From: a virus
Direction: 5' to 3' (one strand)
IMG/VR virus record: IMGVR_UViG_3300048914_000069
Span: 1-50,010 of that record
DNA: 50,010 nt
Below the pieces are notes generated by a model. It made no database searches. It saw only the letters and a list, made by a program, of their open reading frames with translations, and was not told where the DNA came from. The position numbers and the translations under genes are program-made. Below, in pieces: positions 17,450 to 34,568 of this stretch (position 1 is its first letter; every line of letters begins with the position of its first letter).

Positions 17450-17458
17450 CCAACCACT

Positions 17459-17945: not shown

Positions 17946-17956
17946 CGGCGGTTTTT
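17931..17956 (+). terminator. Rho-independent terminator overlapping a stop codon
   Basis: Stem ACCGCC/GGCGGT, 10-nt loop containing the TAA of the preceding gene, then TTTTATTT. A new promoter begins 14 bp later. Confidence 0.8.
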
Positions 17957-17969
17957 ATTTGCCCGCGTA

Positions 17970-17998
17970 TTGACGGTCTCGTCATTATGGATAATAAT
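17970..17998 (+). promoter_or_regulatory. Promoter with TGACG-N4-CGTCA operator (accessory block 2)
   Basis: -35 TTGACG, 17 bp, -10 AATAAT, the best -10 of the set. Palindrome TGACGGTCTCGTCA at 17971-17984. It drives 18026 onward. Confidence 0.78.
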
Positions 17999-20384: not shown

Positions 20385-20859
20385 AACCAAGCGAAGTTGG
20401 ACACGTGTACGAGTTGCTGAACGCTGGGGTATTCCATTCTGGCGACTCGTACACGATATACACCATCAGGGGTTCACACGCGCTGATGCGTCCCGAATTA
20501 TCGGTATGGAACGTAATGCCTTTACAGCGTTACTGAGAGCTAACCAAGACAACAACCCGTGGGGTAGTTCCAATGTGGTCGCCAACTATGTACGCGATAC
20601 AGGTGAGCCGTTCAGAGACGCTCTGTTGAGAATGCAGCGAGAGGGCTATAGCTTGAATCAGGTGAACAGGGCGATTGGATTCTGTGGCGCCAGTCAGAAC
20701 TCGGGCATCCGATACGCCATGAAAGTACGTGGAATCGACATCAAATTCGAATGGGTTCCACCCGTCAAGGTGAAGCGCAAAAAGGTCGACAGGGGTCCAA
20801 ATGTGACCAAAGGATGGCCGACCTGGGAACAGGTTTACGTGATGCAACGACCCGCTTAG
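20368..20859 (+). CDS. DNA-binding-like protein upstream of the terminase region
   Basis: The 163-aa product has repeated helix-turn-helix-like units (VAERWGIPFWRLVHDIHHQG; LLRMQREGYSLNQVNRAIGF) and a basic C-terminus (VKVKRKKVDRG). It is the last gene before the AT-rich non-coding element and the terminase genes, so it could act on that DNA. No family assigned. It ends inside the terminator at 20851. Confidence 0.6.
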   Translation: MLNATETKRSWTRVRVAERWGIPFWRLVHDIHHQGFTRADASRIIGMERNAFTALLRANQDNNPWGSSNVVANYVRDTGEPFRDALLRMQREGYSLNQVNRAIGFCGASQNSGIRYAMKVRGIDIKFEWVPPVKVKRKKVDRGPNVTKGWPTWEQVYVMQRPA

Positions 20860-20870
20860 GCGGGTTTTTT
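20851..20870 (+). terminator. Terminator of the accessory block
   Basis: Stem CCCGC/GCGGG, loop TTAG (which contains the stop codon), then TTTTTT. Confidence 0.85.
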
Positions 20871-21067: not shown

Positions 21068-21346
21068 TACCCCGGTATACCCCGTACCCCGGAACTCGCA
21101 AACTATCCGGGGTAGCCTGGAAGCCACGGATTACGTGGCTTGTAGCGGGTTTACCCGAATACCCCGTATCGCTCTCACTCTCCAGCCATACGATATAATA
21201 TATAATGATATGTATTCTCATATACATTACTACTCTACTACTAATATTATTTATTCGGGGTATCGGGGTATAAAATATATATTAGTAGTAAATACAAGGA
21301 CTTACGACATACCCCGATAAATACCCCGAATCAGTTTTACGGGGTA
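21068..21346. repeat. TACCCCG-iteron non-coding element, copy 1
   Basis: It holds ten exact TACCCCG/CGGGGTA heptamers, at 21068, 21078, 21085, 21108(-), 21160, 21256(-), 21264(-), 21310, 21322 and 21340(-). A hairpin TACCCCGG/CCGGGGTA (21085-21092/21107-21114) has a 14-nt loop containing ACTCGCAAACTAT, identical in copy 2. The middle is very AT-rich (ATATAATATATAATGATAT). The order of blocks is the same as in 33784-34044. Candidate replication origin, partition or late-operon control element. Confidence 0.75.
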
Positions 21347-21360
21347 TGGACCTGTCGGGA

Positions 21361-21389
21361 TTGACTCGCCTGTCAGCGACGGCGACAAT
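21361..21389 (+). promoter_or_regulatory. Late promoter before terminase, with operator variant
   Basis: -35 TTGACT, 17 bp, -10 GACAAT. Variant palindrome TGACTCGCCTGTCA at 21362-21375. ATTGAC-K-CGCCTGTCAGCG is shared with the TetR-like gene promoter (11749), differing at one base in 19. Confidence 0.65.
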
Positions 21390-21419
21390 CGTGTGACCTC
21401 AACCGCAAGGCTTTCCGCA

Positions 21420-21965
21420 ATGCTGATCACCATCGACAATCGCACCATCGAACTGAGCGACGAACAGGTCTCGGCATTCCACGCCCTGACTCGTTTGCAG
21501 CAAGGCGTGGTGATCGGGACACTCGAAGGGTTGACTCAACGTGCTGCGTATCGTCGTGCCGGTGGTAAGGCGAAGACGGATGCTGGTGCCGACATGAGCG
21601 CCAGTCAGATCATGGGAAATCAAAAGGTTGCCGAGTTCGTCAGTTCGTTAAAGTCCAATCAAACTAATCGGCTTGCCGACGCGATTATGTCCCGTGACGA
21701 TATGGCGCTGTTGTTAAATGATATGGCGTTAACGAAAGTTACAGTCGCAGACTTAAATAACCCCGACAAACTTGCCGATGTTGCGGAAGTTATTATTGAT
21801 CCGGAAGGCGGCGTTAGATACAAACTTACAAGTCCGGCAGACCGTCGAGCAGCGATGAAACAACTTGCCGAACTTATGGGTTATAACAAACCAACCGAGA
21901 TTAAACTTTCCGGTGAAGTAACTACCCGCGCAAGGCTTGACGATTTCTATGGGTCCAACTCTTAA
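21420..21965 (+). CDS. Terminase small subunit
   Basis: The 181-aa start at ATG 21420 lies downstream of the predicted transcript start; the in-frame GTG 21393 lies too close to the promoter. LSDEQVSAFHALTRLQQGVV and GLTQRAAYRRAGGKAK form the helix-turn-helix DNA-recognition part of Terminase_2-type small subunits, followed by an oligomerisation region and a C-terminal end that meets the large subunit. It overlaps the large terminase by 17 bp. It would recognise the packaging site, which may lie in the adjacent non-coding element. Confidence 0.85.
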   Translation: MLITIDNRTIELSDEQVSAFHALTRLQQGVVIGTLEGLTQRAAYRRAGGKAKTDAGADMSASQIMGNQKVAEFVSSLKSNQTNRLADAIMSRDDMALLLNDMALTKVTVADLNNPDKLADVAEVIIDPEGGVRYKLTSPADRRAAMKQLAELMGYNKPTEIKLSGEVTTRARLDDFYGSNS

Positions 21966-23340
21966 TCCCGCACTCCGTGATTTCTGGACAACCCGTGAGA
22001 CGCCTGAAGGCGACCCGGTGCGGTTCAGGGTGTTACACGGTGGCCGGATGTCCTCCAAGTCCCACGACATGGCCGGTGTGGCCATAGCCCGGGCAAACTT
22101 CAGCACCGAACGCTTCCTGTGCCTGCGGATGTTCCAGAACCGTATCGCCGACTCGGTGTACACGTTGTTGAAGGACAAGATCAGCTATTTCGAGCTGGAC
22201 AAGAATTTCAAGATTTACGCCGACGCCATTGAGCACAAGACCAACGGGTCGCTGTTCCGGTTCTACGGTGTGGCGCGCAACGTCGACGAGATCAAATCGT
22301 TTGAAGGTGCAACGGTGTCATGGTGGGAGGAAGCCCACCTGATGACTGAATCAGCGTTCAACACGGTGCGCCCGACGGTCATGCGTAACGATGGCGCCGA
22401 GATGTGGTTCTCGTTCAACGCCCGATTCGCTACCGACTTCGCCTGGAAGCGTCTCGTTATCTCGCCGCCACGCGGTACGCTGATCCGTCAAATCAATTAC
22501 GACGAAAACCCGTTCCTCTCCCCTTCCGCCTTGGCTGATATCGAGTCGGCGTTTGAGGAAGACTACGACCTCGCGATCCACACGTACAAAGGCGTTCCGT
22601 TCGACAGCGACGACAGTGTCGTTATCAAACGTGCGTGGCTCCAAGCCGCTGTAGACGCGCACAAGATCGTTAAACCGCTGTCGGGTACATGGACCGGGGG
22701 CAAGACCGTTGGTTACGACGTGGCGGACGATGGGGACGACAAGAACGCCACCACTACAATGGATGGGATGGTCTGCATCGACCTCGACGAGTGGAAAGGC
22801 GGACAGGATGAGTTACGAGAGTCGGCAGCCCGTGTGAAAATGACCGCCGAACGTCTCCAGGCGTCGCAGATCGGTTACGACAGCATCGGGGTAGGCGCTG
22901 GTACAGGGTCTCACCTGAACTCGTTGCTGTGGCGCCGTCACTACCGTTTCAACGCTGGCGGCAAGGTGAGCGACCCGAAACGTCACTACGGCGACACCAA
23001 GATCACCAACGAGGACTTTTTCGCAAATCTGAAAGCCCAAGCATGGTGGCTCGCAGCGGATCGCTTCCGTAACACGTATCTGGCCGTGACAAAGGGTCGA
23101 CAGTTCCCCGCTGATCAGATGATCAGCCTGTCGAGTGAGTGTGACGCGAAGTTGTTGAACAAGCTGATTGATGAGCTGTCGACGCCCATGCGTGACTTCG
23201 ACAACGCGGGGAAGGTCAAGGTGGAGAGCAAGAAGGATCTGGCTAAGCGCGAGATCGTATCCCCCAACATCGCAGACTCGTTCATCATCGCTGCGTGCCG
23301 GGGGATGTTGGCGAAAGTGCCGATTGGGTCGATGTTATGA
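21949..23340 (+). CDS. Terminase large subunit
   Basis: The 463-aa ATP-driven packaging motor/nuclease starts at ATG 21949. ATPase: HGGRMSSKS (Walker A variant) and VSWWEEAH (Walker B with catalytic Glu). Nuclease: GYDVADDGDDKNA, IGYDSIGVGAGTG and SPNIADSFII supply the acidic residues. The order and length match Terminase_3/PBSX-type large subunits. Its end overlaps the stop of the convergent leftward gene by 6 bp. Confidence 0.93.
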   Translation: MGPTLNPALRDFWTTRETPEGDPVRFRVLHGGRMSSKSHDMAGVAIARANFSTERFLCLRMFQNRIADSVYTLLKDKISYFELDKNFKIYADAIEHKTNGSLFRFYGVARNVDEIKSFEGATVSWWEEAHLMTESAFNTVRPTVMRNDGAEMWFSFNARFATDFAWKRLVISPPRGTLIRQINYDENPFLSPSALADIESAFEEDYDLAIHTYKGVPFDSDDSVVIKRAWLQAAVDAHKIVKPLSGTWTGGKTVGYDVADDGDDKNATTTMDGMVCIDLDEWKGGQDELRESAARVKMTAERLQASQIGYDSIGVGAGTGSHLNSLLWRRHYRFNAGGKVSDPKRHYGDTKITNEDFFANLKAQAWWLAADRFRNTYLAVTKGRQFPADQMISLSSECDAKLLNKLIDELSTPMRDFDNAGKVKVESKKDLAKREIVSPNIADSFIIAACRGMLAKVPIGSML

Positions 23341-23694
23341 CGCTACGAATGCTTCGGCCTCACACCACAGCGTGATGGCTGTATCACAGGTCATTTTAAG
23401 CGGTAATTCGTCATCGTCTAGATCTACGCTCACAACGATGTATTCCCGACCAATAGTGAAATACCCGTCGTGACGATCAGGAATCGCTACACATTTCAAC
23501 ACCTGACCGACGGTGAACCCGTCAGGTAACGAAGCGTAGAGTTCCGATAAACACTTGTTGGTCCGATCCGTAGCATCCTCGAACAGTTCGACACCGTCTT
23601 CACGGCTACCCTGTTCAAGCATTGCGTCTTTGATAGCTGATCGCACCGCATCGAACAGATCACGCTTGTCAAGTGTTACGTTGTTGTCACCCAT
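23335..23694 (-). CDS. Leftward accessory gene between terminase and portal
   Basis: The 119-aa start MGDNNVTL has GAGGGG at good spacing; upstream in-frame ATGs lie at the promoter. An acidic helical N-terminus, then a beta-rich domain (GFTVGQVLKCVAIPDRHDGY...REYIVVSVD) suggests a small SH3/OB-like fold. It is a moron-like cassette with its own operator-promoter (23732-23760), inserted against the late operon. Not recognised. Confidence 0.65.
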   Translation of the reverse strand: MGDNNVTLDKRDLFDAVRSAIKDAMLEQGSREDGVELFEDATDRTNKCLSELYASLPDGFTVGQVLKCVAIPDRHDGYFTIGREYIVVSVDLDDDELPLKMTCDTAITLWCEAEAFVAS

Positions 23695-23731
23695 GATGTT
23701 TCCCCTCTGTGCCACGTTTAAGATACACTGG

Positions 23732-23760
23732 AGCATATGACACTATGACGGGTTCGTCAA
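23732..23760 (-). promoter_or_regulatory. Leftward promoter with TGACG-N4-CGTCA operator
   Basis: -35 TTGACG, 17 bp, -10 TATGCT, read leftward; palindrome TGACGGGTTCGTCA at 23746-23759. Its right edge is 2 bp from the portal start codon, leaving the portal gene without a visible Shine-Dalgarno. Confidence 0.72.
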
Positions 23761-23761
23761 C

Positions 23762-25150
23762 ATGACTTTACCAGCCACTACCGACGGACTTGTTAACGTC
23801 GCTTCCGGTCTCGGCACCTCGAAGGCTAAGCGGTCTCACAACCAGTTCTGCTACTCAGTCCTTAACAACTGGGCGAGCTGGGACGCGGCCTATACTACCA
23901 GTTGGCTAGCCCGCCAGATCGTCGATATTCCCGCTGAGGACATGACGCGTGAGTGGCGTACGATCAAGTGTGACGGTGCTGACGAGATCCGCGCCGAAGA
24001 GGATCGCCTCCACATCCCGATGGACTGCAACGAGGCGCTGAGCTGGGCACGTCTGTACGGTGGTGGCGGCATTCTCATGATTACCGGTCAAGATTTGACC
24101 AAACCGCTCAACCTGAACGCGGTGCGCAAGGGTGACTTGCAACGTGTGATCGTGTTCGACCGCTTCGATATGCAAGCGATGACGCTCAACACCTGGAACG
24201 TCCTGGCAGCGAATTACCTCGAACCGGAGTTCTACACCATCAACGGTGGTGGACAACAGGTTCATTGGTCACACTTTGCGCGGTTCATGGGCGCTAAGCT
24301 GCCACGTCGTCAACGTGCACAGACGCAAGGTTGGGGCGACTCGGAACTGCGCAAGTGTCTCGAAGACATTATGGACATCGTCGCGAGTAAGGACGGTATC
24401 GCTGAGCTGATGCAGGAAGCGAACGTCGATGTGATCACCCGTGTGGGGTTGAGCGACGAATTGGCGAGTGATCAGGACTCGGCGATCATCGACCGTTACA
24501 CCCTGTTCAGTCAGATGAAGTCGCTCGTGCAGATGGCGTTGCTCGACGGTGAAGAGACGTACGACCGTAAGACCCTGGACCTCGCCGGGGTTGCCCCGGT
24601 GCTTGAAACGTTGATGACGTGGATCAGTGGTGCCGCCGACATTCCTGTCACTCGACTGTTCGGTACGTCTGCCAAAGGGCTCAACGCCACCGGTGAGGGT
24701 GACAACACCAACTACAAGAATTCGATCCGCTCGAAACAACTGACGCAGCTCGACCCGGGCCTACGCTCACTCGATCAGGTGTTGGTACGTTCAGCGCTGG
24801 GGTACTGGCCGGAGGATTACAACTACGTCTGGAACCCACTCGATCAGCCCGACACTGTGGCGATGGCGACAGCCGCGAAGCTGCGTGCTGATACGGATAT
24901 CGCGTATCTCGACGCGAGTGTGGTTCAAGTGAGTCAGATTCAGCGCCGTCTCCAGGCTGAAGAGGCGTATCAGTTCAACGACGAGGACATCGAGGAACTT
25001 GAAGGGTTGGAGGAACCGAACATGCCTGCTGAACCGGTTGTTGAAGAGAAAGCGCCAGCGTTATCGACTGACGCGTTCATGAGTGCGTACACCGCCCTGA
25101 CCCGCGACGGTGTATCACACGATTCGGCTATGGCTGTGTTGATGGGGTGA
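23762..25150 (+). CDS. Portal protein (DUF1073 family)
   Basis: The 462-aa product follows the DUF1073 portal pattern: SYTTSWLARQIVDIPAEDMT-like start region (here TTSWLARQIVDIPAEDMTRE), ARLYGGGGILMI, GWGDSELRKCLEDI, ASKDGIAELMQEANVDV, and IPVTRLFGTSAKGLNATGEG. It forms the dodecameric portal vertex. The last ~50 residues are acidic and Pro-rich. The start codon abuts an operator and has no clear ribosome site. Confidence 0.9.
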   Translation: MTLPATTDGLVNVASGLGTSKAKRSHNQFCYSVLNNWASWDAAYTTSWLARQIVDIPAEDMTREWRTIKCDGADEIRAEEDRLHIPMDCNEALSWARLYGGGGILMITGQDLTKPLNLNAVRKGDLQRVIVFDRFDMQAMTLNTWNVLAANYLEPEFYTINGGGQQVHWSHFARFMGAKLPRRQRAQTQGWGDSELRKCLEDIMDIVASKDGIAELMQEANVDVITRVGLSDELASDQDSAIIDRYTLFSQMKSLVQMALLDGEETYDRKTLDLAGVAPVLETLMTWISGAADIPVTRLFGTSAKGLNATGEGDNTNYKNSIRSKQLTQLDPGLRSLDQVLVRSALGYWPEDYNYVWNPLDQPDTVAMATAAKLRADTDIAYLDASVVQVSQIQRRLQAEEAYQFNDEDIEELEGLEEPNMPAEPVVEEKAPALSTDAFMSAYTALTRDGVSHDSAMAVLMG

Positions 25151-25493
25151 GACGGTAGGCGACGATATAATCGTCCCGCTCGTGACCCCACCCCCAGTTA
25201 TTGGCGCTATATCCGAATTTCTCGTCACCGTCACGTAAACGGACATCGACGATTTGAAGAGGGTGTACAGGTCGTTTACCACCGTTCCACTCGATCCACC
25301 CGTCGCTGTCATCCAGCGTCACAACCGGCTCACCACGTGGCGCACCCCAACCGAGTTCAGCGAGTCGCACAACGATCTCACCGTGACATTGACCGGCGTG
25401 TTCAAACAGTGCGTCGGCTTCAGCCTGTGCCGCCTTGGCACGTGCTTCAAGGTCGCGCCACTCAGCCAGCATCGTTTCGAGTGTTGGGGTCAT
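25128..25493 (-). CDS. Leftward accessory protein with phage GWGHERDDYIVAYRL ending
   Basis: ATG 25493 has GGGAG 8 nt upstream and overlaps the upstream stop. The 121-aa product has an N-terminal helix rich in Glu/Ala (12-45) and a C-terminal domain ending DVRLRDGDEKFGYSANNWGW and DDYIVAYRL, a small domain I know as common in phage accessory proteins. Its function is unknown. Its end overlaps the portal gene end by 23 bp, convergently. Confidence 0.65.
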   Translation of the reverse strand: MTPTLETMLAEWRDLEARAKAAQAEADALFEHAGQCHGEIVVRLAELGWGAPRGEPVVTLDDSDGWIEWNGGKRPVHPLQIVDVRLRDGDEKFGYSANNWGWGHERDDYIVAYRLTPSTQP

Positions 25494-25714
25494 TGCACGT
25501 GCTCCCATTTGGCCCGGGCGACAAGTTCGAACGTCGAGATGTACAGATCCTCACCATCGTCCATTGCCAATTTCACGTTCTGGCACGTATCGTCATCCTC
25601 GATTTTTACGACAATGCCGATCTCACCGATGCGATATGCGAGTTCATGGGGATGACGCGTGTTTACACAAACAACTTTGACTTTGTCGCCGATTACCAGT
25701 TCGTTGTGATGCAT
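25490..25714 (-). CDS. Small KOW/SH3-like accessory protein
   Basis: The 74-aa beta-rich product (LVIGDKVKVVCVNTRHPHEL, IGEIGIVVKIEDDDTC) has the look of a small barrel. It is the first gene of a two-gene leftward cassette driven by the promoter at 25747-25775. Not recognised. Confidence 0.6.
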   Translation of the reverse strand: MHHNELVIGDKVKVVCVNTRHPHELAYRIGEIGIVVKIEDDDTCQNVKLAMDDGEDLYISTFELVARAKWEHVQ

Positions 25715-25746
25715 GGGTGTCGCTCCGTTGTGTTAATGTGAACCGA

Positions 25747-25775
25747 ACTGTAACCCCTTCTGACGGACTCGTCAA
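25747..25775 (-). promoter_or_regulatory. Leftward promoter with TGACG-N4-CGTCA operator
   Basis: -35 TTGACG, 17 bp, -10 TACAGT, read leftward; palindrome TGACGGACTCGTCA at 25761-25774, ending 4 bp before the start codon of the next head gene. Confidence 0.72.
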
Positions 25776-25778
25776 CAC

Positions 25779-26558
25779 ATGGTTCGATATAACGCAGCAC
25801 TTCAGCGAATCGCCCGGGCGGTGAGGAAAGACATCGACGAGGTGATCGTTCCGCTCGTGAAACAGTACGCGCCTGAATACGTTCAGGACTCGACGCCGAC
25901 ACTGGACGGCTGGGCCGACACCATCGCCAGGGCGTTACAATTCCTGCTCGGTAAGTGGCTCTCCCCTCCCGCACGTCAAGCAGCCGAATCAATCGCGTCG
26001 GAGTTCGTAAAGTCACAGATGCGTGTGAATTCACGTGGGCGACAGTCGTTCGGTATCGACGTGTTTAGCAACTCGCAACAGGCGCGCAACTATCTCGACG
26101 CAGCGACCTATCAGAACGCCACGCTCATCACGTCGATTCCTGCGCAGTACCTGGAACAAGTGTCGAACATCGTCATGGCGAATATGCGCGCCGGTATGCG
26201 ACCGTCGTTCATCGAGAAGGCGTTGAGCGAGCAATTCGGCGTTACGGCGCGTCGGGCGAAAATGATTGCACGCGATCAACATGCCAAAGTGCAAGGCGAG
26301 TTGAATAAGCGTAAACAGACCGCTGCAGGATTTTCGTACTTCCGCTGGGTCGACAGTCATGACCAACGCGTGCGCCATCGCCACCGTGAAATCGCGGACA
26401 AGGTGACGGAATTCGGCAAGGGCGTATACGCCTGGAGCGATTTGCCGCTCAGCGACAAGGGTGAACCAATTCAGCCGGGTAGCGATTATCAATGCAGGTG
26501 CATCGCAATCGCTGTCCCGGACTCGAAGGTTAAGGCGTTTCAGGAGGGTAAGGGTTGA
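25779..26558 (+). CDS. Mu gpF-like head morphogenesis protein
   Basis: The 259-aa C-terminal half carries the gpF signature: ARRAKMIARDQHAKVQGELN, then FRWVDSHDQRVRHRHREI, and PGSDYQCRCIAI. These minor head proteins are packaged or act with portal in head assembly. It follows the portal gene, interrupted by the leftward cassette. No clear Shine-Dalgarno is seen because the operator abuts the start. Confidence 0.9.
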   Translation: MVRYNAALQRIARAVRKDIDEVIVPLVKQYAPEYVQDSTPTLDGWADTIARALQFLLGKWLSPPARQAAESIASEFVKSQMRVNSRGRQSFGIDVFSNSQQARNYLDAATYQNATLITSIPAQYLEQVSNIVMANMRAGMRPSFIEKALSEQFGVTARRAKMIARDQHAKVQGELNKRKQTAAGFSYFRWVDSHDQRVRHRHREIADKVTEFGKGVYAWSDLPLSDKGEPIQPGSDYQCRCIAIAVPDSKVKAFQEGKG

Positions 26559-26829
26559 GTTGCAGCTCCAACAGGAACGCCACACAGCACATCGCGTGCG
26601 CAAGGTGAGGGAGACCGGTCTCACTGTCCAGAAGCTCGCCCCGTCGATGTGAGTTCACGTGGCGCATGAGCGCGTCCAAGTAACGTTGGTCACCATTCGC
26701 AACTTTGCGCCAGTTGTCGGGACCATACTTCGTCGCACCAAACGTCAAAACCTCAGCCATTGCCGTTTCTGCTCTCGCCGGGATGAGGCTCATCAGCGGT
26801 TTCCCGCTATCAAATTTCATACCTTCCAT
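26530..26829 (-). CDS. dATP/dGTP diphosphohydrolase-like protein
   Basis: The 99-aa start MEGMKFDSGKP has AGGTG 7 nt upstream. KFDSGKPLMSLIPARAETAM, VLTFGATKYGPDNWRK, ALMRHVNSHRRGELLD and GLPHLAHAMCCVAFL are the hallmarks of the phage dATP/dGTP diphosphohydrolase (DUF5664-type, MazG-like all-alpha) family. It would adjust nucleotide pools. It lies leftward between head genes, overlaps gpF by 29 bp, and has a palindrome over its predicted start region. Confidence 0.82.
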   Translation of the reverse strand: MEGMKFDSGKPLMSLIPARAETAMAEVLTFGATKYGPDNWRKVANGDQRYLDALMRHVNSHRRGELLDSETGLPHLAHAMCCVAFLLELQLNPYPPETP

Positions 26830-26846
26830 CGTTGATGTCACCTCAT

Positions 26847-26888
26847 TGACGTTTTCGTCATATTGTCAGTCGATACAAGTTGCGTCAA
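26847..26888 (-). promoter_or_regulatory. Leftward promoter with the operator over -10/+1
   Basis: Read leftward: TTGACG (26888-26883), 17 bp, CAATAT (26865-26860). Exact palindrome TGACGTTTTCGTCA lies at 26847-26860, overlapping the -10 end and the start site rather than the -35. This different geometry argues the palindrome is a protein site and not merely a by-product of a -35 box. Confidence 0.5.
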
Positions 26889-26935
26889 CCCTTCGCACAC
26901 GTTATTGTTTGGTAAATATTGCGAGGGCGGGATCA

Positions 26936-27760
26936 ATGACAAAGACGTGCGTGAAATGCGGTATCGAAAAACCGTTGACGGAATTCCACAGAAACAAGAA
27001 GTGTGGACGCGGGGTTGATAATCGCTGTAAGTCGTGTAAAAACCAGATCAAGCGCGAGTACGATGCACTCAACGAAACAAAACAAATGGGTGTCGAGTAT
27101 CGCAAAGGCGAAGTCTACAAAGCCGGACGTGCAAGACAAGCCCAGGCACGAGCCGACAGGCGTAAAGATAAAGCCGAACAAAATCGTATCGCGGTGGGTG
27201 AGTTATTCGTCTCGCGAGTTGATGCACTCGCCCAGAGTCTAACCCGTTACAACGAAGGTGTGCTGTGCAAGCGGGGTCATAGGGGTGAGCGATCTACGGC
27301 GAATAACCAGTGCCTCGACTGCATGACATTGAAGCGGTTATGCCCAGATTACAAAGCGATGAAGGCCGATTACCACCAGACGAATCGTTCTCACATGATC
27401 GCGAAGAATGTTGAAAACCAACGTCGGCGTTACGCAACTGACCCGGGATACAAAGCCGCGACAGCAGCTCGCAATATGCTCAAACGAGTACTGGCGGCGG
27501 GTCAGAATCGGAAGGTTGGTCGATCAAGCACACTACTCGGCTACACCGGTATCGAATTAATGGATTACATGACATCCCTTTTCACCGGCGGGATGAGTTG
27601 GTCGAACTACGGTGATTGGCACATCGACCACATCCGACCCGTATCGCTTTTTGTTGCTGAAGGTGTCACCGATCCAGCCATCGTGAACGCATTATCCAAC
27701 CTTCAACCGTTATGGGCTGAAGACAATTTTGCGAAACGCAACAAGTTTGATAATCCGTAA
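26936..27760 (+). CDS. HNH homing endonuclease
   Basis: The 274-aa product has N-terminal zinc ribbon CVKCG...CKSCK (residues 5-36), a long basic helical middle, a second ribbon around LCKRGH and QCLDCM, and a C-terminal HNH: DWHIDHIRPVSLF, NALSNLQPLW and AEDNFAKRNK. It is a free-standing mobile endonuclease inserted between gpF and the protease gene. It probably shares the divergent region with the nucleotide hydrolase gene. Confidence 0.87.
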   Translation: MTKTCVKCGIEKPLTEFHRNKKCGRGVDNRCKSCKNQIKREYDALNETKQMGVEYRKGEVYKAGRARQAQARADRRKDKAEQNRIAVGELFVSRVDALAQSLTRYNEGVLCKRGHRGERSTANNQCLDCMTLKRLCPDYKAMKADYHQTNRSHMIAKNVENQRRRYATDPGYKAATAARNMLKRVLAAGQNRKVGRSSTLLGYTGIELMDYMTSLFTGGMSWSNYGDWHIDHIRPVSLFVAEGVTDPAIVNALSNLQPLWAEDNFAKRNKFDNP

Positions 27761-27774
27761 CGTCGTGATAGTAT
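27747..27774 (+). promoter_or_regulatory. Possible promoter before the prohead protease
   Basis: TTGATA, 16 bp, TAGTAT, ending 29 bp before the GTG start of the protease gene. It lacks the palindrome. Confidence 0.35.
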
Positions 27775-27803
27775 GCGTGCAGTCACATTCATAGGCTGAC
27801 ACC

Positions 27804-28946
27804 GTGCTACTGACCATCAATGATCGCGCAAGCCATAAAATCACCCATCGTGAGTATACTGACGAGGGTTTCTTGCGCGTTCCAGGCCGTGTCGCCCGCA
27901 CCGGTATTCAAGAATATCTCGCACGCGAACTGGGTTTGCCCGGTGACCCGAATCGGGTTGTCCGTGTGTATCGCCCACCTTCCGAGGTGTTTAAAAGCGA
28001 ATCCCTATCGTCGTTTGACGGTGCGGTAATCACCATTGACCACCCTGCGGGCCTTGTTAATAGCACCAATTACAAGAAGGTCGCCGTCGGCGTCGTCCGT
28101 GGTGTCGGTGTGCAGGATGGCGATTTCGTTAAATGCGATCTGATTTTTCAGGATGCTGACGCGATCAACGCGATCAACGCGGGCAAGTGCGAACTATCAT
28201 CTGGCTATACCGCCGTTTACGATGACACTCCGGGTATCACACCCGAGGGTGAGCCCTACGATTACACTCAAACCGACATTAAGATCAACCATGTCGCGGC
28301 TGTGTATAATGCTAGAGCGGGCTCTCAAGCCCGTGTGTTCGACCATACCCACTCTGGAGGCAACACAATGCCTGTACTCATTACCACTGATAGCGGGCGC
28401 AGCGTTGATGTTGCTGATCCTGCAAATGCTCAGGTAGTCGCCGACGCGTTCGACCGACTCACCCTGCGCGCAACCACTGCTGAAGCTGCCGCCGAGAAAG
28501 CTCAAGCGACTGCCGACGGTAACGCCGAGAAATTGTCCGCCGCTCTGGCGCTGGGCAGCGACGACGCGATCAAGTCCCGTGTGGCCGCCCTGGGTGCGCT
28601 GAACACCACCGCTCGTAAAGTGGCTGGCGATGCGTTCACCTGCGACAGCGTCGACCCGACCGAAGTGATGCGCGCCGCTCTGCTGGTCAAGCGTCCATCC
28701 GTTGACTGGGCTGCGAAGTCCCCGGCGTACATTCAGGCATCGTTCGACATGGCTGCTGAAGCCGAGCCGACCGGAACTGATGTCACGACAACTGTTACCG
28801 GTGACACCGCGACCGTGCTGAGTCAGTTGTTGGCTCTGGCCAAGGACGCGTCGGGCAAGTCTACCGCTGACAGCGTACCGGTCGCCGACGCGTACACCAC
28901 CTACAAAGAATCTCAGGCCAACGCCTGGAAAGGAGCGCAGCAATGA
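27804..28946 (+). CDS. DUF2213-type prohead protease with C-terminal scaffold
   Basis: GTG start, 380 aa. The N-terminal domain (1-182) is DUF2213-like: EYTDEGFLRVPGRVARTGIQ, FDGAVITIDHP with His80, VGVVRGV, and GKCELSSGYTAVYD with the candidate nucleophile Ser132/133. The C-terminal half is Ala/Glu/Lys-rich and helical, like a scaffold. An internal ATG (codon 189) with a perfect GGAGG site can make the scaffold alone. Catalytic residues are inferred from their placement. Confidence 0.85.
   Translation: MLLTINDRASHKITHREYTDEGFLRVPGRVARTGIQEYLARELGLPGDPNRVVRVYRPPSEVFKSESLSSFDGAVITIDHPAGLVNSTNYKKVAVGVVRGVGVQDGDFVKCDLIFQDADAINAINAGKCELSSGYTAVYDDTPGITPEGEPYDYTQTDIKINHVAAVYNARAGSQARVFDHTHSGGNTMPVLITTDSGRSVDVADPANAQVVADAFDRLTLRATTAEAAAEKAQATADGNAEKLSAALALGSDDAIKSRVAALGALNTTARKVAGDAFTCDSVDPTEVMRAALLVKRPSVDWAAKSPAYIQASFDMAAEAEPTGTDVTTTVTGDTATVLSQLLALAKDASGKSTADSVPVADAYTTYKESQANAWKGAQQ
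28368..28946 (+). CDS. Nested scaffold protein from an internal start
   Basis: ATG 28368 is in frame with the protease gene and has TGGAGG exactly 7 nt upstream, the best ribosome site in this region. The 192-aa product starts MPVLITTDSGRSVDV, then a helical stretch (AEAAAEKAQATADGNAEKLS) and an acidic/Thr-rich linker, ending in a helix. This copies the lambda C/Nu3 arrangement, where scaffold is made from inside the protease gene. A TATAAT box also lies upstream (28307 area), without a good -35. Confidence 0.65.
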   Translation: MPVLITTDSGRSVDVADPANAQVVADAFDRLTLRATTAEAAAEKAQATADGNAEKLSAALALGSDDAIKSRVAALGALNTTARKVAGDAFTCDSVDPTEVMRAALLVKRPSVDWAAKSPAYIQASFDMAAEAEPTGTDVTTTVTGDTATVLSQLLALAKDASGKSTADSVPVADAYTTYKESQANAWKGAQQ

Positions 28947-29440
28947 GCGTACAAGGCGGCAATGCGATTAACCACGGCGTCGCGTATGCGGGCATGGTCT
29001 CCACCGGGTTCCAACTGCTGAACAGCGTATCGAAGCTCAACAAGGGTACGGTGAACCTTGCGTTCGGCCTAGGCGTAGTGACCGATGGTGATGACGGTGC
29101 GAAATTACCCGTATCGACCTCGACCGCTGCGAACTTCATCGGCGTGATCAAGCGTGAACTGAATCGCGCTTACACAGCTACCGATGTGGTAGGCGCCACC
29201 GCTAAGCGCGACATGACCGTTGTTACCAGCGGCGAGATATGGGTAACTGCCCGTGTGGCCGTAACCAAAGACGACCCGGTATGGGTGGTCATCGGCGATG
29301 GTACTGGTACTAACCAGGGTCAGTTCTCGAACGTTGTCGGCGCTGCTGCGACCCTGGCCGTTCAAGTGCCGGACGCCAAATGGACCAGTTCGGCAGGTGC
29401 CGGTGCGCTGGCTAAAATCACTCTGAACATTGGGGGCTGA
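28943..29440 (+). CDS. Head decoration / structural cement protein
   Basis: The 165-aa beta-rich product starts MSVQGGNAINHGVAYAGMVS, followed by a FGLGVVTDGDDGAKLP loop and RDMTVVTSGEIWVTARVAV. This agrees with the structural cement (Gp24-like) proteins that sit before DUF2184 capsid genes. It would stabilise the expanded shell. It overlaps the protease end by 4 bp. Confidence 0.75.
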   Translation: MSVQGGNAINHGVAYAGMVSTGFQLLNSVSKLNKGTVNLAFGLGVVTDGDDGAKLPVSTSTAANFIGVIKRELNRAYTATDVVGATAKRDMTVVTSGEIWVTARVAVTKDDPVWVVIGDGTGTNQGQFSNVVGAAATLAVQVPDAKWTSSAGAGALAKITLNIGG

Positions 29441-29442
29441 TC

Positions 29443-30474
29443 ATGACTCAGCGCACTAAGATTTCTGTAGCCGTAGCTGACGCATACGCTGAGCGCAACG
29501 GTCTGCCAAAAGGTCACCAGATTACGTTCACTGACGGTCTCCCGACCGTGGACGATGGTCTGGCGTTCTACATTTCGCAACTGGCGAATCTTGAAGCTAA
29601 GATTTATCAGTCGAAATACACCGCGATCAGCTTTGCTGAACTGGTACCAATCAACACGAACGTTCCTGAATGGGCCGATTCGTGGGATTACATCTCGTAC
29701 GACGCGGTCACCATTGGTAAATTCATCGGTTCTAGCGCCGATGACCTGCCGAACGTTGCCATCGCTGCAAACAAGTCCTCGGTGCCAATCGGCTACGCTG
29801 GTAACAGCTACGATTACAGCCTGGACGAGCTGCGTAAGTCCCAGCAACTGCGTATCCCGCTGGACACCACCAAGGCTCAGGCGGCATTCCGTGGTTCGCA
29901 GGAACACACCCAGCGCGTGGCTTACTTCGGTGACGCCTCTCGCCAGATGACCGGTCTGTTCAATAACGCCAACTTGGCACTCGATTCGTCGACTGTCGAC
30001 TGGTACAACGCCGCCACCACTGGTAACCAGATCGTTCAGGACATGAACACCCTGCTGACTAAGGTATGGATCAACTCGGCCAACGTGCACGTTCCGAACG
30101 TTCTGGTCATGGACTCGGCGCGTTACTCGTTCATCTCCACCAAACGTATGGAAACCGGTACTGACACCACCGTGCTGGAGTTCTTCCTGCGCAACAACCT
30201 GTACACCAACCTCACCGGTCAGGCGCTGCGCGTGGTTCCACGCCTGCAACTGTCCGCCGCTCAACTCGCCATCGGTGGCGTGTCGAACGGCTCGAAGGAT
30301 CGTATGCTGGCGTACGAACTGAACGACGAAAACCTGGGCATGGTGAACCCGATCCCATGGCGCGCACTGGCTCCACAAATGCGCGGCCTGAACGTGTTCA
30401 TCCCTGCCGAGTACAAGCTGTCCGGCGTGGAGTTCCGCTACCCGTTCAGCGCGGCTTACCGTGACTCGATCTAA
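29443..30474 (+). CDS. Major capsid protein (DUF2184 family)
   Basis: The 343-aa HK97-fold capsid has the family blocks DGLAFYISQLANLEAKIYQS, DSWDYISYDAVTIGKFIG, YDYSLDELRKSQQL, and the end PAEYKLSGVEFRYPFSAAYR. Codon use is strongly biased to the highly expressed set, as expected for the most abundant virion protein. A terminator follows at once (30488). Confidence 0.92.
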   Translation: MTQRTKISVAVADAYAERNGLPKGHQITFTDGLPTVDDGLAFYISQLANLEAKIYQSKYTAISFAELVPINTNVPEWADSWDYISYDAVTIGKFIGSSADDLPNVAIAANKSSVPIGYAGNSYDYSLDELRKSQQLRIPLDTTKAQAAFRGSQEHTQRVAYFGDASRQMTGLFNNANLALDSSTVDWYNAATTGNQIVQDMNTLLTKVWINSANVHVPNVLVMDSARYSFISTKRMETGTDTTVLEFFLRNNLYTNLTGQALRVVPRLQLSAAQLAIGGVSNGSKDRMLAYELNDENLGMVNPIPWRALAPQMRGLNVFIPAEYKLSGVEFRYPFSAAYRDSI

Positions 30475-30487
30475 GGTGTAATGATTG

Positions 30488-30507
30488 ACCCGCTTCGGCG
30501 GGTTTTT
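30488..30507 (+). terminator. Terminator after the major capsid gene
   Basis: Stem ACCCGC/GCGGGT, stable TTCG loop, then TTTT. Confidence 0.88.
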
Positions 30508-30519
30508 CATGCTCGGGTA

Positions 30520-30548
30520 TTGACGGACTCGTCACAGTGGTGCAGGAT
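30520..30548 (+). promoter_or_regulatory. Promoter with TGACG-N4-CGTCA operator (moron at 30.6 kb)
   Basis: -35 TTGACG, 17 bp, -10 CAGGAT. Palindrome TGACGGACTCGTCA at 30521-30534. Terminator, promoter and one gene form a classic moron unit. Confidence 0.72.
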
Positions 30549-30583
30549 TACCCGACACATAACAGTTTGGGAGGGTTGCGGAT

Positions 30584-31165
30584 ATGAAACTGATTGATAT
30601 TTTGGCGCGAGAGCTGAAGGAGTGGCCGGAAGGTGTTGAGCAGCTGACTCAATCGCAGGTTGATAACGAGCTGTACCAAAGCTTTCCTGAAGATCATCCG
30701 ATGGGGGCGCATTCGCTTGCGCCAAAAGTTGACCTTGAAACTCATCACTCTGAGCGTGACCCGTACCCGGTCGTCACCCGCGCCGAATGGCAGGTCGCAG
30801 TTGATGCGGTGAATGAGCCGAAGGTTACCGAATGGAACGGCGAAGAACTGCCGCCGGTTGGGACGGTGTGTGAGTTTATGAAACACAGTTCACCGCCGTC
30901 ACCGGAAGGACAATGGGCGGTTGGTGATATTCGCTACGTTAGCGACTGCACTGTAATCATCGGTGGTGATAAATGTGAACACGTTCATCATCCGCGAAAC
31001 TGTTCTTTCCGCCCAATCCGAACGCCTGAGCAGATCGCGGCGGAAGAGCGCCTGAAAGCAATCGACGAAATGGCAGCGGTCTACAAGTCGAACTATGAAG
31101 GCCACGTCAAGGATGGCTGCCAAGCACTCTACGACGCCGGTTACCGCAAAACTGATGTACAATAA
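30584..31165 (+). CDS. Moron-encoded accessory protein, 193 aa
   Basis: The C-terminal part FRPIRTPEQIAAEERLKAID and GCQALYDAGYRK is a module common in enteric and Pseudomonas phage accessory proteins. The middle (WNGEELPPVGTVCEFMKHSS to DCTVIIG) is a small beta domain found in the same proteins. Soluble, function unknown. It is flanked by a terminator and its own operator-promoter between capsid and head-completion genes. Confidence 0.72.
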   Translation: MKLIDILARELKEWPEGVEQLTQSQVDNELYQSFPEDHPMGAHSLAPKVDLETHHSERDPYPVVTRAEWQVAVDAVNEPKVTEWNGEELPPVGTVCEFMKHSSPPSPEGQWAVGDIRYVSDCTVIIGGDKCEHVHHPRNCSFRPIRTPEQIAAEERLKAIDEMAAVYKSNYEGHVKDGCQALYDAGYRKTDVQ

Positions 31166-31193
31166 TTCCCAACCTGAAACGAGGTAACACCAC

Positions 31194-31505
31194 ATGCTGC
31201 TGCGAAACAATTCGAGCCGACTGATCACCATCAACGCCCCGATGACCGACGGTGGTTACACCACATTCTTCGACATCAAGCCCGGTGAAAACCCAGCGGT
31301 CGAAGTACCGGATGAGCTGTGCAAATCCGACTTCGTGAAAAACCTGCTCAATACTGGCGACCTGACCCGCATGACCCCGGCTGATACCGACGGCGACGAT
31401 AATCTCGAAGCGCTGCGTAACGAAGCGCTGCTGCTCGGTATCGACGTCAAGAAAACCTGGAACGCCGACAAGATCCGCACCGAGATTGACAAAGTCAACG
31501 TGTGA
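31194..31505 (+). CDS. Small head-region protein, 103 aa
   Basis: It starts after an AGGT site. A beta-rich N-terminus (RLITINAPMTDGGYTTFFDI) is followed by a helical C-terminal SAP-like end (LEALRNEALLLGIDVKKTWN, ...KIRTEIDKV). The position between capsid and DUF4054 genes suggests a head-completion or decoration role. A variant palindrome (31503-31516) overlaps its stop. Confidence 0.6.
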   Translation: MLLRNNSSRLITINAPMTDGGYTTFFDIKPGENPAVEVPDELCKSDFVKNLLNTGDLTRMTPADTDGDDNLEALRNEALLLGIDVKKTWNADKIRTEIDKVNV

Positions 31506-31516
31506 CGGTAATGTCA
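31503..31516. promoter_or_regulatory. Operator variant TGACGGTAATGTCA without a clear promoter
   Basis: It has the TGACG-N4-TGTCA form seen at 11751, 32721 and 44667, but I see no -10 at the right distance. The following ~150 bp hold no gene, so this may be the remnant of a lost cassette. Confidence 0.4.
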
Positions 31517-31653
31517 ATTGCATCAACCAGCGCCAGCAATGCCGTTACGGCTCGGAATGCATCACAGGTTTAGCGGTCGTCCTTCTTCGCGACCAGATCA
31601 TCGCGCCAACGTGGATCAAAGCGCCTGAGATGTTTGAGTAAACCGTAACCCCT

Positions 31654-31690
31654 ACCCCAGCCACTTTAACCGGTGCGACTGGGGTTTTTA
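31654..31690 (+). terminator. Terminator before the DUF4054 gene
   Basis: Stem ACCCCAG/CTGGGGT around an 18-nt loop, then TTTTT. It closes the short non-coding stretch 31506-31690. Confidence 0.75.
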
Positions 31691-31739
31691 CCGTCTGTCA
31701 TGCTATTCTGTAGCGCAACGACACATAGGAGTGGCCACC

Positions 31740-32153
31740 GTGGTCATCACCCAGGCAATGATCGACAGCTTCCGGGCTGAATTCTTCGCGTTCTCCGACG
31801 TTACCAAATGGCCCGACGCGCTGATCAGTTGTGCATTGTGCGAGGCTGACGCCGAGACGGGTTCGAGTCGCTGGGGTGCGTACGAGGACGAGTGCCACAA
31901 CTTCAAGCGGCGTGGAATGTTCTACTTCGCTGCGCACTGGCTCGCGACGAACTACGGCACAACCGGTGTGACCGCTGATCCCAACTCTGAGGCGCGGTTG
32001 AACGTCGCCAGCAAGTCAGTAGGTGATGAGGCTATCGCGTATCGGGTACCTAAGATGATGGACGTGGGCGACGACTGGTTGACCTTCACAGTGTACGGTC
32101 AGCAGTTCTATCGCCTGCGTCGTCGCGCTGGCATGGGCGCTATTGCGGTTTAA
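31740..32153 (+). CDS. DUF4054-type head completion/connector protein
   Basis: The 137-aa GTG start at 31740 is chosen because AGGAG lies 8 nt upstream. [20 protein letters not shown], then [26 protein letters not shown] and [12 protein letters not shown] match the DUF4054 connector family that follows DUF2184 capsids. It would form the ring between portal and neck. Its end overlaps the convergent 32140-32331 by 14 bp. Confidence 0.83.
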
Positions 32154-32331
32154 CAGCCGCTGCGTCCTTAATCGTACGACGTGGGTTCTGCACAACGAAA
32201 CTCTCGTTCTGATGTGCGTCGTTGTAGAACATGTCGCTGCACACGAACCCGGCAGCCTGGAGCGCGTCACGTGCGATCTTTGACAGCGTCGCACGACTGG
32301 CACCCTTGAACGTTATGGTCGCGTTAGTCAT
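32140..32331 (-). CDS. 63-aa leftward accessory protein
   Basis: [20 protein letters not shown] suggests an alpha/beta ferredoxin-like mini-domain; a basic end ([15 protein letters not shown]). It is the last gene of a three-gene leftward cassette and overlaps the previous stop. Not recognised. Confidence 0.55.
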
Positions 32332-32462
32332 AAACCCCTCACGTATGCGGATGCTGGATAACCTGGGACTTCGTCAGGCCACGTCTGGTGATACACAGGC
32401 TTGGGTTTGGTCGACTTGTTCTCGCGCAGGACGAAGAACCTTAGTGCCAGTAGCGCGATCAT
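32328..32462 (-). CDS. 44-aa leftward membrane-associated peptide
   Basis: ATG at 32462 overlaps the upstream stop and its TGA overlaps the downstream ATG. A hydrophobic N-terminus (MIALLALRFFVLR) is followed by a Pro/Tyr-rich tail. Unknown. Confidence 0.5.
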   Translation of the reverse strand: MIALLALRFFVLRENKSTKPKPVYHQTWPDEVPGYPASAYVRGL

Positions 32463-32671
32463 ACCGACCGCCCCGCTTCGTCTTTCAGTCGCTGACATTC
32501 TTCGACGCTTGGTTTGTTGACGCGACCGTCTTCCCAGCTCCGGCGTGGCGCTTCACCCTTCAACCGACGGAACACGTTGCCGACTTTGCGACGGATCAGA
32601 CGCTGCGTGAAACTTTGACCGGTGACGATCTCGTAAACAGTGCCAGCGATGTCAGACAGGAAGTATTTCAT
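32459..32671 (-). CDS. 70-aa basic leftward protein
   Basis: The GGAG site lies within a 12-bp inverted repeat just upstream. The product is very basic (TQRLIRRKVGNVFRRLKGEAP), possibly nucleic-acid-binding. Not recognised. It is the first gene of the three-gene cassette. Confidence 0.55.
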   Translation of the reverse strand: MKYFLSDIAGTVYEIVTGQSFTQRLIRRKVGNVFRRLKGEAPRRSWEDGRVNKPSVEECQRLKDEAGRSV

Positions 32672-32675
32672 GGTT

Positions 32676-32708
32676 GTGACTCCATCGGTTGGGGTTCGAT
32701 GGAGTCAC
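32676..32708 (-). promoter_or_regulatory. Perfect 12-bp inverted repeat at a leftward start site
   Basis: GTGACTCCATCG/CGATGGAGTCAC with a 9-bp centre. It covers the predicted transcript start and the ribosome site of 32459-32671 and partly overlaps the -10. It could be a DNA operator, or an mRNA hairpin if transcription starts further upstream. Confidence 0.6.
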
Positions 32709-32735
32709 TGTGGATCATAATGACGAGCCTGTCAA
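32707..32735 (-). promoter_or_regulatory. Leftward promoter with operator variant
   Basis: -35 TTGACA, 17 bp, -10 CACAGT, read leftward; variant palindrome TGACGAGCCTGTCA at 32721-32734. Confidence 0.55.
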
Positions 32736-32746
32736 TATAATTATTA

Positions 32747-33313
32747 TCACGCCGCCGCAGGGACCAGTGTGAGCTCAGGTGGTGCGAATCGAAGGAACCG
32801 CTGCATAACCATGCGTACTTCGCGTTCCATCTCTTGCTGATGATCGGTGGGGATCTTCTCAGCGAGTAGCATCGCATCATGCCACAAGGCGCCTATGAGG
32901 CTGTCGGGACCTTTGACGTCCACACCTTCCATCTCAGGGCGCGACGGCGCTGGCGGCTCGGCAAGCTTGCGCTGGTGCGAGGCTGCGCGTATCTCACGGA
33001 TGGTCGTACGCATCGCCCCGACCGTCTCAAAGCTGAGTACGTCAAGACCCAGGCGGTAAGCGGCTCGGAAGGTTGACACGTAGAGTTTCACTGCGTCGGG
33101 TGCTGGCTTCTCTTTCGAGCCTGCCACGGGGCGACCCGCTGTCTGACTCCACCCGTTGATTTTGAAGGCGTCCCGAACCACCTCGTTGAAGTGACCCAGG
33201 TCGGCAACGTCCTCAGCCTTCAAGGTCGAGAACATCCCGTTTGCGGCGCTTTCCACGCCTTTGGCTTTGCGTGCGATGTTGGTGAAGTCCACTGCTAATG
33301 TTTGAGCGTTCAT
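32747..33313 (-). CDS. Leftward accessory protein, 188 aa
   Basis: The mostly helical, soluble protein MNAQTLAVDFTNIARKAKGV... has a basic middle (IREIRAASHQRKLAEPP) and a Pro-rich loop before a helical end. No motif is recognised. It is the second gene of cassette B, about 80 bp after the 38-nt RNA motif. It might belong to phage DNA-associated proteins, but this is a guess. Confidence 0.6.
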   Translation of the reverse strand: MNAQTLAVDFTNIARKAKGVESAANGMFSTLKAEDVADLGHFNEVVRDAFKINGWSQTAGRPVAGSKEKPAPDAVKLYVSTFRAAYRLGLDVLSFETVGAMRTTIREIRAASHQRKLAEPPAPSRPEMEGVDVKGPDSLIGALWHDAMLLAEKIPTDHQQEMEREVRMVMQRFLRFAPPELTLVPAAA

Positions 33314-33385
33314 GGTGCACTACCTCAAGTGTTTAGGTTGGGTAGCGTCCGTGCATGTGTAGCACCGTCGTTGTCATGTCTGTGC

Positions 33386-33423
33386 GGCACTGACTTAGCC
33401 CCAGTTAAGGGGCTTGAGGTGGG
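33386..33423 (-). ncRNA. 38-nt repeated hairpin motif (copy B)
   Basis: 35 of 38 positions match 17459-17496 in the sense of transcription. The stem and loop are identical; the three changes lie outside the stem. As in copy A it follows a short gene behind an operator-promoter and precedes another gene. Confidence 0.6.
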
Positions 33424-33432
33424 TAGGGCTGA

Positions 33433-33555
33433 TCAGGTCCGGGGGCGCTGTACCCATTGACCGTCCAGGGGCCCACCCTTCATTCGAACCCACTGCATAC
33501 CTCTTGCTGGGCGTTTAGAAGGTCTTGGGTCGTTTACACCGATTACGTATTTCAT
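33433..33555 (-). CDS. 40-aa basic protein of cassette B
   Basis: ATG 33555 is set by the GGAG of the shared leader. The product MKYVIGVNDPRPSKRPARGM... ends with a MKGGPLDGQWVQRP stretch; the GGPLDG motif recurs in small phage proteins. Function unknown. Confidence 0.6.
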   Translation of the reverse strand: MKYVIGVNDPRPSKRPARGMQWVRMKGGPLDGQWVQRPRT

Positions 33556-33580
33556 CTCATCTTGCTCCGTTGTTCGTTTC
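33552..33580 (-). repeat. 29-nt leader shared with cassette A (copy B)
   Basis: 27 of 29 positions match 17290-17318. It begins at the predicted transcript start of the promoter at 33590-33618. Confidence 0.8.
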
Positions 33581-33589
33581 AGTAGGGTC

Positions 33590-33618
33590 AGTATTATCCA
33601 GAATGACGGGTTCGTCAA
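33590..33618 (-). promoter_or_regulatory. Leftward promoter with TGACG-N4-CGTCA operator (cassette B)
   Basis: -35 TTGACG, 17 bp, -10 AATACT, read leftward; palindrome TGACGGGTTCGTCA at 33604-33617. Confidence 0.75.
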
Positions 33619-33783
33619 TACCGTTGGTCAGGTACTCAGTGACCAGATCATGTCAAATAGTCACAGAACGTCCACTGTAATTTTCCAGTCACGGAAATGA
33701 AGACGACCCAGTAGTCACAGAGTGACCAGTAACGACTATCTAGTCATGAAATGTCTTTTCTAGGGTCACCGGTGCTGAAACCA
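33619..33783. other. Non-coding stretch with repeated AGTCAC/GTGAC motifs
   Basis: No gene. AGTCAC occurs at least three times (about 33659, 33690 and 33714) with GTGACC in the other sense nearby. It directly precedes the TACCCCG element and may be part of it. Confidence 0.45.
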
Positions 33784-34044
33784 TACCCCGTACCCCGAAA
33801 CTCGCAAACTATCCGGGGTACGATTCTAGCGCTCTAGCACGCGGGTTTGAGGGGTGTTAACCGAATACCCCGCATCGATCTCACTCTCACGCCGCTGGCT
33901 ATATACGTTACTGTATTACATACATACCATCCCTATTCTAATATTATTTATTAAGGGTATCGGGGTATAGAATAAAAGGAGGTGTCTATCCCGGTACTCT
34001 CAGCGATACCCCGAATGTCTACCCCGTATAGAATTACCGGGGTA
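33784..34044. repeat. TACCCCG-iteron non-coding element, copy 2
   Basis: Eight exact TACCCCG/CGGGGTA heptamers: 33784, 33791, 33824(-), 33866, 33961(-), 34007, 34020 and 34038(-). Blocks shared with copy 1 in the same order: ACTCGCAAACTATCCGGGGT, CGAATACCCCG-Y-ATCG, and CTAATATTATTTATT then GGGTATCGGGGTATA. The short stems between them differ in sequence, which could be compensatory. It ends just before a neck gene. Confidence 0.75.
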
Positions 34045-34048: not shown

Positions 34049-34075
34049 TTGTCACGACAACCATTGTGGTATTAT
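34049..34075 (+). promoter_or_regulatory. Possible promoter for the neck/tail operon
   Basis: TTGTCA, 15 bp, TATTAT, ending only 7 bp before ATG 34083, so the mRNA would be leaderless or nearly so; no Shine-Dalgarno is seen. The spacing is short, so the call is weak. Confidence 0.35.
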
Positions 34076-34082
34076 TCGACCC

Positions 34083-34568
34083 ATGGCTATCTCCCTGAAA
34101 ACCGTTGACTTCCAACGGGCCGTCGACAAACTGAAAACGGAACTGAAAACGTTTCGCGGGGGCAAGTACGCGCTCGTCGGAATTCATGAGGATGCCGGAA
34201 AAGTCGAAGGTGAGCAGATGACCGAGGCTGAACTCGGCGCGCTTCAGCACTTCGGTACTGATGGACCCCCTAAGATTCCAGCACGCCCCTGGCTCGACGT
34301 CGGCGTGCAGTCAGGTACGGTTGATGTGATCGATTACGTTCGCGACCAGATCGGCAAAGGTGCAAACCTTGACACGGTCATCGAGGGTGTCGGCATCTTG
34401 GCGGCTGGGGCGACTCAGCAGTACATCACGGACCTGAAGACACCACCCAACGCACCGTATACAATCGCCAAGAAGGGATCGGATAACCCCCTTATCGACA
34501 CGGGGCGCATGCGCGCCTCTGTCACATCCACAGTCACCGACGAAAAACCGACAGAGGGCCTTGTATGA
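34083..34568 (+). CDS. HK97 gp10-like / neck morphogenesis protein
   Basis: 161 aa. GGKYALVGIHEDAGKVEG, AELGALQHFGTDG, IPARPWLDVGVQSG and PLIDTGRMRASVT are the signature blocks of the virion morphogenesis/gp10-like neck proteins. It links the head connector to the tail. It is the first gene after the second TACCCCG element. Confidence 0.83.
   Translation: MAISLKTVDFQRAVDKLKTELKTFRGGKYALVGIHEDAGKVEGEQMTEAELGALQHFGTDGPPKIPARPWLDVGVQSGTVDVIDYVRDQIGKGANLDTVIEGVGILAAGATQQYITDLKTPPNAPYTIAKKGSDNPLIDTGRMRASVTSTVTDEKPTEGLV

Follow-up and report, generated by a model that had tools for sequence, protein, structure and literature searches.

A DNA element of ~270 bp built on TACCCCG/CGGGGTA iterons was found twice in the window (the whole 50,010-nucleotide stretch of phage DNA that was analysed), and we consider, at a probability of about 0.6, that each copy controls a late operon under the direction of a replication-module protein and is probably also an origin of replication. 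The element tracks the replication module, since it is present with the primase across phages of several virion types and absent from primase-less contigs with a Neck1 gene, and its copy number tracks the late operons.

The contig (49.9 kb) was called circular because of its 127-bp terminal repeat, and its virion genes are of the contractile-tailed phage type (sheath, baseplate). The closest matches of its primase and terminase were Klebsiella jedunaviruses, and Pectobacterium PEAT2, Edwardsiella MSW-3 and Pantoea AAM22 are also related; most of the relatives are metagenomic contigs. Genes are termed late here on the basis of their virion function, and the features under discussion are listed in Table 1.

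Table 1. Position and supporting evidence of the features of the window related to the duplicated element.
Feature	Position	Strand	Evidence or remark
94-aa TetR-type HTH protein, candidate iteron binder	11816..12100	+	PF00440 (TetR_N), E=7.5e-8, 32.5 bits (cut-off 24)
Primase-helicase, NrS-1 HBD + DUF5906, strongly conserved C-terminal ~100 residues	13029..15368	+	
Terminator-like hairpin and T-run, end of the early operon upstream of copy 1	20849..20866	+	1 found vs 0.8 expected in shuffles, weak alone
Element copy 1, before terS, ten TACCCCG/CGGGGTA iterons	21068..21346	+	Profile E=9e-42 (window in training set)
Copy 1 inverted repeat TACTACTAATAT (21236-21247) / ATATTAGTAGTA (21279-21290), AT-rich core	21236..21290	+	
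terS promoter TTGACT-17-GACAAT, after copy 1	21361..21389	+	Conserved in six relatives
Terminase small subunit (terS)	21420..21965	+	phrog_51, E=2.5e-11
Element copy 2, before Neck1, eight TACCCCG/CGGGGTA iterons	33784..34044	+	Profile E=8e-36 (window in training set)
Copy 2 inverted repeat TATTCTA (33934-33940) / TAGAATA (33968-33974) around AGGGTATCGGGGTA	33934..33974	+	
Extended -10 promoter TGTGGTATTAT, after copy 2	34065..34075	+	Sole TGTGG[CT]A[TCA][TA]AT match in the window
Neck1/tail completion protein, first gene of the second late operon	34083..34568	+	phrog_222, E=6.8e-34

The duplication, the ten and eight heptamers and the identical order of blocks given in the preliminary description were all recovered; the copies lie 12,697-12,706 bp apart and align in blocks of 38 nt at 97%, 55 nt at 78% and 37 nt at 92% identity. 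The pair is the largest internal direct repeat of the window, the 127-bp terminal repeat aside, in agreement with the claim that nothing else of this size is duplicated there. Altogether 23 heptamers were counted in the window against 4.9 ± 2.2 expected from dinucleotide shuffles, a number reached in none of the 100 shuffles. The earlier list of blocks was right in its order and needed amendment in its content, as it omitted the promoters and as the block CTAATATTATTTATT belongs, as its left arm, to an inverted repeat flanking a tandem GGGGTA pair. The arms of this repeat differ between copies 1 and 2, yet they are complementary within each copy; in copy 1 they enclose tandem CGGGGTA heptamers at 21256-21262 and 21264-21270. 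The supposed hairpin with loop ACTCGCAAACTAT was reinterpreted as an inverted iteron pair, with invariant arms and a loop kept among close relatives only. A covariation analysis across relatives detected no compensatory changes in this hairpin or in the second stem, leaving the folded stems without covariation support.

The preliminary description had linked the element to the replication module and had named beforehand what would speak against it, namely relatives with the primase lacking the element while unrelated phages have it; the link withstood the comparison. Using a DNA profile built from 55 elements, with presence defined as E < 1e-4, the element was detected in 34 of the 37 fully read genomes carrying the primase, many of which were in the training set, and matches were also obtained outside that set (G027, G028, L142, L160 and L161). 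Three primase genomes (G025, G026 and G029) showed no clear element, although the HTH gene was present in them. All the primase-less contigs with a Neck1 homologue (n = 20; 23-88 kb) were negative for the element, and all those examined for the HTH gene (n = 19) lacked it. The module formed by the HTH and primase genes was also found in phages with unrelated virion genes, which have one element each, before the first late gene. A pattern scan for elements without a primase returned two contigs of >20 kb (G066 and G067), rejected as chance matches in terminators; the other primase-less matches were two short fragments of 15.1 and 13.7 kb.

Two copies, one before terS and the other before the Neck1 gene, were present in all the fully read jedunavirus-like genomes (n = 19), and self-comparison of JD001, PEAT2, MSW-3 and AAM22 revealed a duplicated intergenic element at both places. 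A single copy was found in 15 primase genomes of another plan, including the end-repeat-complete G007 and G031; in G002, G005 and G010 the gene that follows it is a phrog_4688 minor tail gene, and in G004 and G030 it is terS. Wherever the next gene was identified it was terS, Neck1 or the phrog_4688 minor tail gene, and the element lay on the strand of the primase at all 52 primase loci with a match (0 opposite). The lysis genes of JD001, located on the opposite strand, have no element. In G034, whose contig is not closed, the copy-2/late block has the polymerase module on one side and the helicase-primase module on the other, indicating that element and late block stay together when the gene order differs. 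Within the window group, similarity is 84-96% between copies occupying the same position in different phages and 73-76% between the two copies within a phage, indicating that the duplication is old and that each copy has been kept separately. Concerted evolution of the copies was rejected, near-identical copies (99%) being found in JD001 only.

Control of late transcription, mentioned in the preliminary description as an alternative, has stronger direct evidence than the two-part ori/crr arrangement put forward there: the copies head late operons, lie on the same strand as these and are followed by a phased promoter. Across the elements a sigma70-type promoter was found just after the last iteron, mostly with an extended -10 such as that of copy 2; a -35 is absent in most elements, and the terS promoter of the window group has one (TTGACT). 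Of 42 de-duplicated elements, 33 had a strong -10-type match, with 6.4 expected (maximum 13 in 200 shuffles), and the distances from the last GGGGT to the -10 clustered at ~20, 31-33 and 41-43 nt (Rayleigh p ~5e-6, de-duplicated), although these statistics are inflated even after de-duplication, because the elements are related sequences, and the promoter cut-offs were set in this analysis. In the window group the terminal GGGGT is 32 or 43 nt from the -10 of the terS promoter, so that the distance for the same promoter differs by exactly 11 nt between close relatives. At copy 2 the -10 hexamer follows the terminal GGGGT at 31 nt, and at this distance a heptamer is centred near -41, the usual position of an activator contacting RNA polymerase. 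The Neck1 ATG follows so closely after the -10 that a leaderless message is likely, and terS probably starts at the ATG at 21420, given that a GTG at 21393 is too near the -10. Judged from the sequence, the phased promoter supports a role of the element in transcription, by activation or repression alike; at the terS promoter of the window activation may not be needed, since the -35 is present.

By association, the protein most likely to bind the iterons is the 94-aa TetR-type HTH protein. Its predicted model (pLDDT 94.7; the PDB sequence matches were TetR regulators) has only three short helices beyond the DNA-binding part and its following helix, and the full TetR ligand-binding/dimerisation C-terminal domain is absent. 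At 67 of 73 loci the gene precedes the primase, mostly lying a few hundred nucleotides from the primase match; of the six loci where it was missed, three are on contigs that begin inside or at the primase gene. Some single-copy phages encode a longer HTH protein, whose extra N-terminal region resembles a second HTH domain. The product of the primase gene, earlier labelled a primase-polymerase/SF3 helicase, is now more exactly described by its matches to the NrS-1 HBD domain and to DUF5906. Its last ~100 residues are strongly conserved even across phages with differing helicase domains and, again by association, may contact the HTH protein or DNA; a fold search with this C-terminal domain gave weak, non-significant matches only, several of them winged-helix.

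Clustered iterons beside the AT-richest DNA, co-inherited with the replication module, make up an anatomy like that of iteron origins, and the element is probably a replication origin. In most genomes the 60-bp stretch ranking first or second in AT content lies in at least one copy of the element, among them nine genomes of 56-63% GC in which it ranks first; the best 60 bp of copy 1 are 83% AT, and a single region of the genome is richer in AT. The block that varies least is the tandem GGGGTA pair, within AT-rich, partly palindromic DNA. The IHF consensus WATCAANNNNTTR was matched 26 times in 62 elements against 1.7 expected, a signal that might also reflect another protein because the middle bases of these sites are biased as well. 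In some genomes with two copies the core of the Neck1 copy is GC-rich (in MSW-3 the maximum 60-bp AT in the core is 0.50). GC skew at four-fold sites showed no sign change at either copy and was strongest in early genes, on both arms, a pattern in which transcription bias could mask an origin. As for alternative origins, the genomes scanned showed no further ACCCC-type cluster of similar strength. The primase had no close plasmid match, and its matches among bacterial or archaeal genome contigs numbered only four.

We propose that the TACCCCG iterons would be bound as an array by a DNA-binding protein made early, for which the 94-aa TetR-type HTH protein is the likeliest candidate, with host IHF probably assisting. 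The protein bound at the last iteron, whose distance to the -10 changes in steps of about one helical turn, would recruit RNA polymerase to a promoter mostly devoid of a -35, copy 1 switching on the genes from terS to the capsid and copy 2 those from the neck to the tail. The same complex would probably open the AT-rich inverted repeat and load the primase-helicase, making one or both copies an origin, and late transcription would thereby be tied in cis to replication. A more general proposal, which we put forward tentatively and at somewhat less than even odds, is a widely shared fusion of origin and promoter, in which an initiator complex with a minimal TetR-type protein would open the origin and fire the adjacent late promoter in phase, with a copy of the element placed at every late operon requiring this signal.

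The phased promoter, the strict placement before late operons and the agreement between copy number and late operons would also be explained if the element were only an array for an activator or repressor encoded near the primase, with no role in the start of replication; the lack of an origin signal in the GC skew and the AT-poor core of some copies fit this account too. We nevertheless judge it rather unlikely, as the element is far longer than a promoter control site needs, contains the AT-richest stretch of the genome even in GC-rich phages and has its candidate binder encoded next to the primase instead of in a regulatory operon, and no comparable ACCCC-type cluster was found elsewhere that could serve as origin. 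The iterons, the AT-rich region, the primase-helicase and the presence of two copies are all expected of a two-part origin of the P4 ori/crr kind, with both copies needed jointly and their position at late genes incidental. This requirement, taken from the preliminary description, is improbable because a single copy suffices in many relatives with the same primase (the 15 genomes mentioned above); moreover, the second copy and late block of G034 are ordered differently relative to the early module, and promoter phasing would be left unexplained.

The position of copy 1 immediately before terS is what a packaging (pac/cos) site for the terminase would show, the other alternative raised earlier, but copy 2 is 12.7 kb away before the neck gene, two cut sites would split the genome, and single-copy phages with another terminase family (phrog_15) carry the element before the minor tail gene. 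The element is thus neither a single site nor tied to a terminase type, and we regard packaging as very improbable. Least credible is a function at the RNA level within the late transcript (antitermination, put-like), even though iterons in opposite orientation can pair and each copy is located at the start of an operon: since the promoter comes after the element, the element would be missing from the late transcript, a terminator-like site precedes copy 1, and compensatory changes are lacking in the stems.

The late promoters dependent on P2 Ogr and Mu C have a weak or missing -35 and a phage activator bound just upstream. The promoters described here resemble them in preceding late operons on the same strand and in having upstream sites in helical phase with the -10, but differ in their candidate activator, a TetR-type protein of the replication operon, and in the ~270-bp upstream array with its AT-rich inverted repeat. 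The satellite phage P4 has the ori and crr iteron regions and the alpha primase-helicase. Iterons flanking AT-rich DNA, two regions per genome and a primase-helicase of the replicon's own are shared with P4, whereas the heptamer TACCCCG, the sufficiency of one copy in many relatives, the late operon with phased promoter behind each copy and a separate TetR-type HTH protein as likely binder are not. Iteron-type plasmid and phage origins (PMC4980987, PMC5043065) likewise have an iteron array, a stretch resembling an AT-rich unwinding element and IHF-consensus sites; the element described here differs in the phage late promoter built onto it in helical phase. In plasmid pRN1, the orf56 DNA-binding protein accompanies the orf904 primase-polymerase, the small protein being described as a transcriptional repressor (PMC4234260); both have a gene for a small DNA-binding protein ahead of that for the primase-helicase, and a short cis region, although pRN1 is an archaeal plasmid without an iteron-late-promoter element. 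The HBD family of the window primase is that of the NrS-1 primase-polymerase, with weak similarity (24% over 63%); the accessible portions of the reports on NrS-1 Pol state that it recognises TTTGGTTA or GTG on the template, and describe no comparable paired element (PMC8718748, PMC7102993).

The element is undescribed in the open literature searched, closed journals being outside that scope. It is common to a large group of phages of several virion types, including the Klebsiella jedunaviruses studied for therapy, and the ~270-bp DNA element together with the 94-aa protein offers a small, concrete target for the start of replication and the switch to virion production. If both functions reside in one element, it would be a simple means of making late expression depend on replication.

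A block of sequence, GTATTGACGG(A/T)CTCGTCA, stands at three places in the window, each time ahead of early or accessory genes, with a -10-like hexamer 3' and often a terminator-like sequence 5' of it. It resembles a sigma70 promoter overlapped by a palindromic operator, and pattern counts also found the palindrome TTGACGN4CGTCAA in the related phages JD001 (n = 5) and PEAT2 (n = 7) and in G016 (n = 7). Very little space separates the predicted -10 from the start codon at window 34070-34083, and likewise at loci L124, L133 and L138, so the first message of the late genes probably has no leader in all four.

Coordinates of the repeated blocks, inverted repeats and probably inserted gene in the window
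Feature	Position	Remarks
GTATTGACGG(A/T)CTCGTCA	15539-15573	
GTATTGACGG(A/T)CTCGTCA	17950-17984	
GTATTGACGG(A/T)CTCGTCA	30500-30534	
Inverted repeat pair	17445-17496 / 33386-33437	52 nt, 83%; joins accessory regions
Inverted repeat pair	17250-17318 / 33552-33620	69 nt, 75%; joins accessory regions
Protein with CapR repeats and MUG113/T5orf172 (GIY-YIG-type) domain	12133-13050	immediately 5' of primase

The CapR-repeat protein is a putative homing-type endonuclease, its gene probably inserted between those of the TetR-type HTH protein and the primase-helicase. In L124, L154 and L163 the HTH protein reaches ~166 aa, with an N-terminal extension similar to a second TetR-type HTH. The helicase domain of the primase (alignment A2, columns ~410-650) diverges strongly between the window, JD001 and PEAT2 on one side and phages MSW-3 and AAM22 on the other, whereas the N- and C-terminal parts are more similar across both groups, which suggests that the helicase domain was swapped through recombination.
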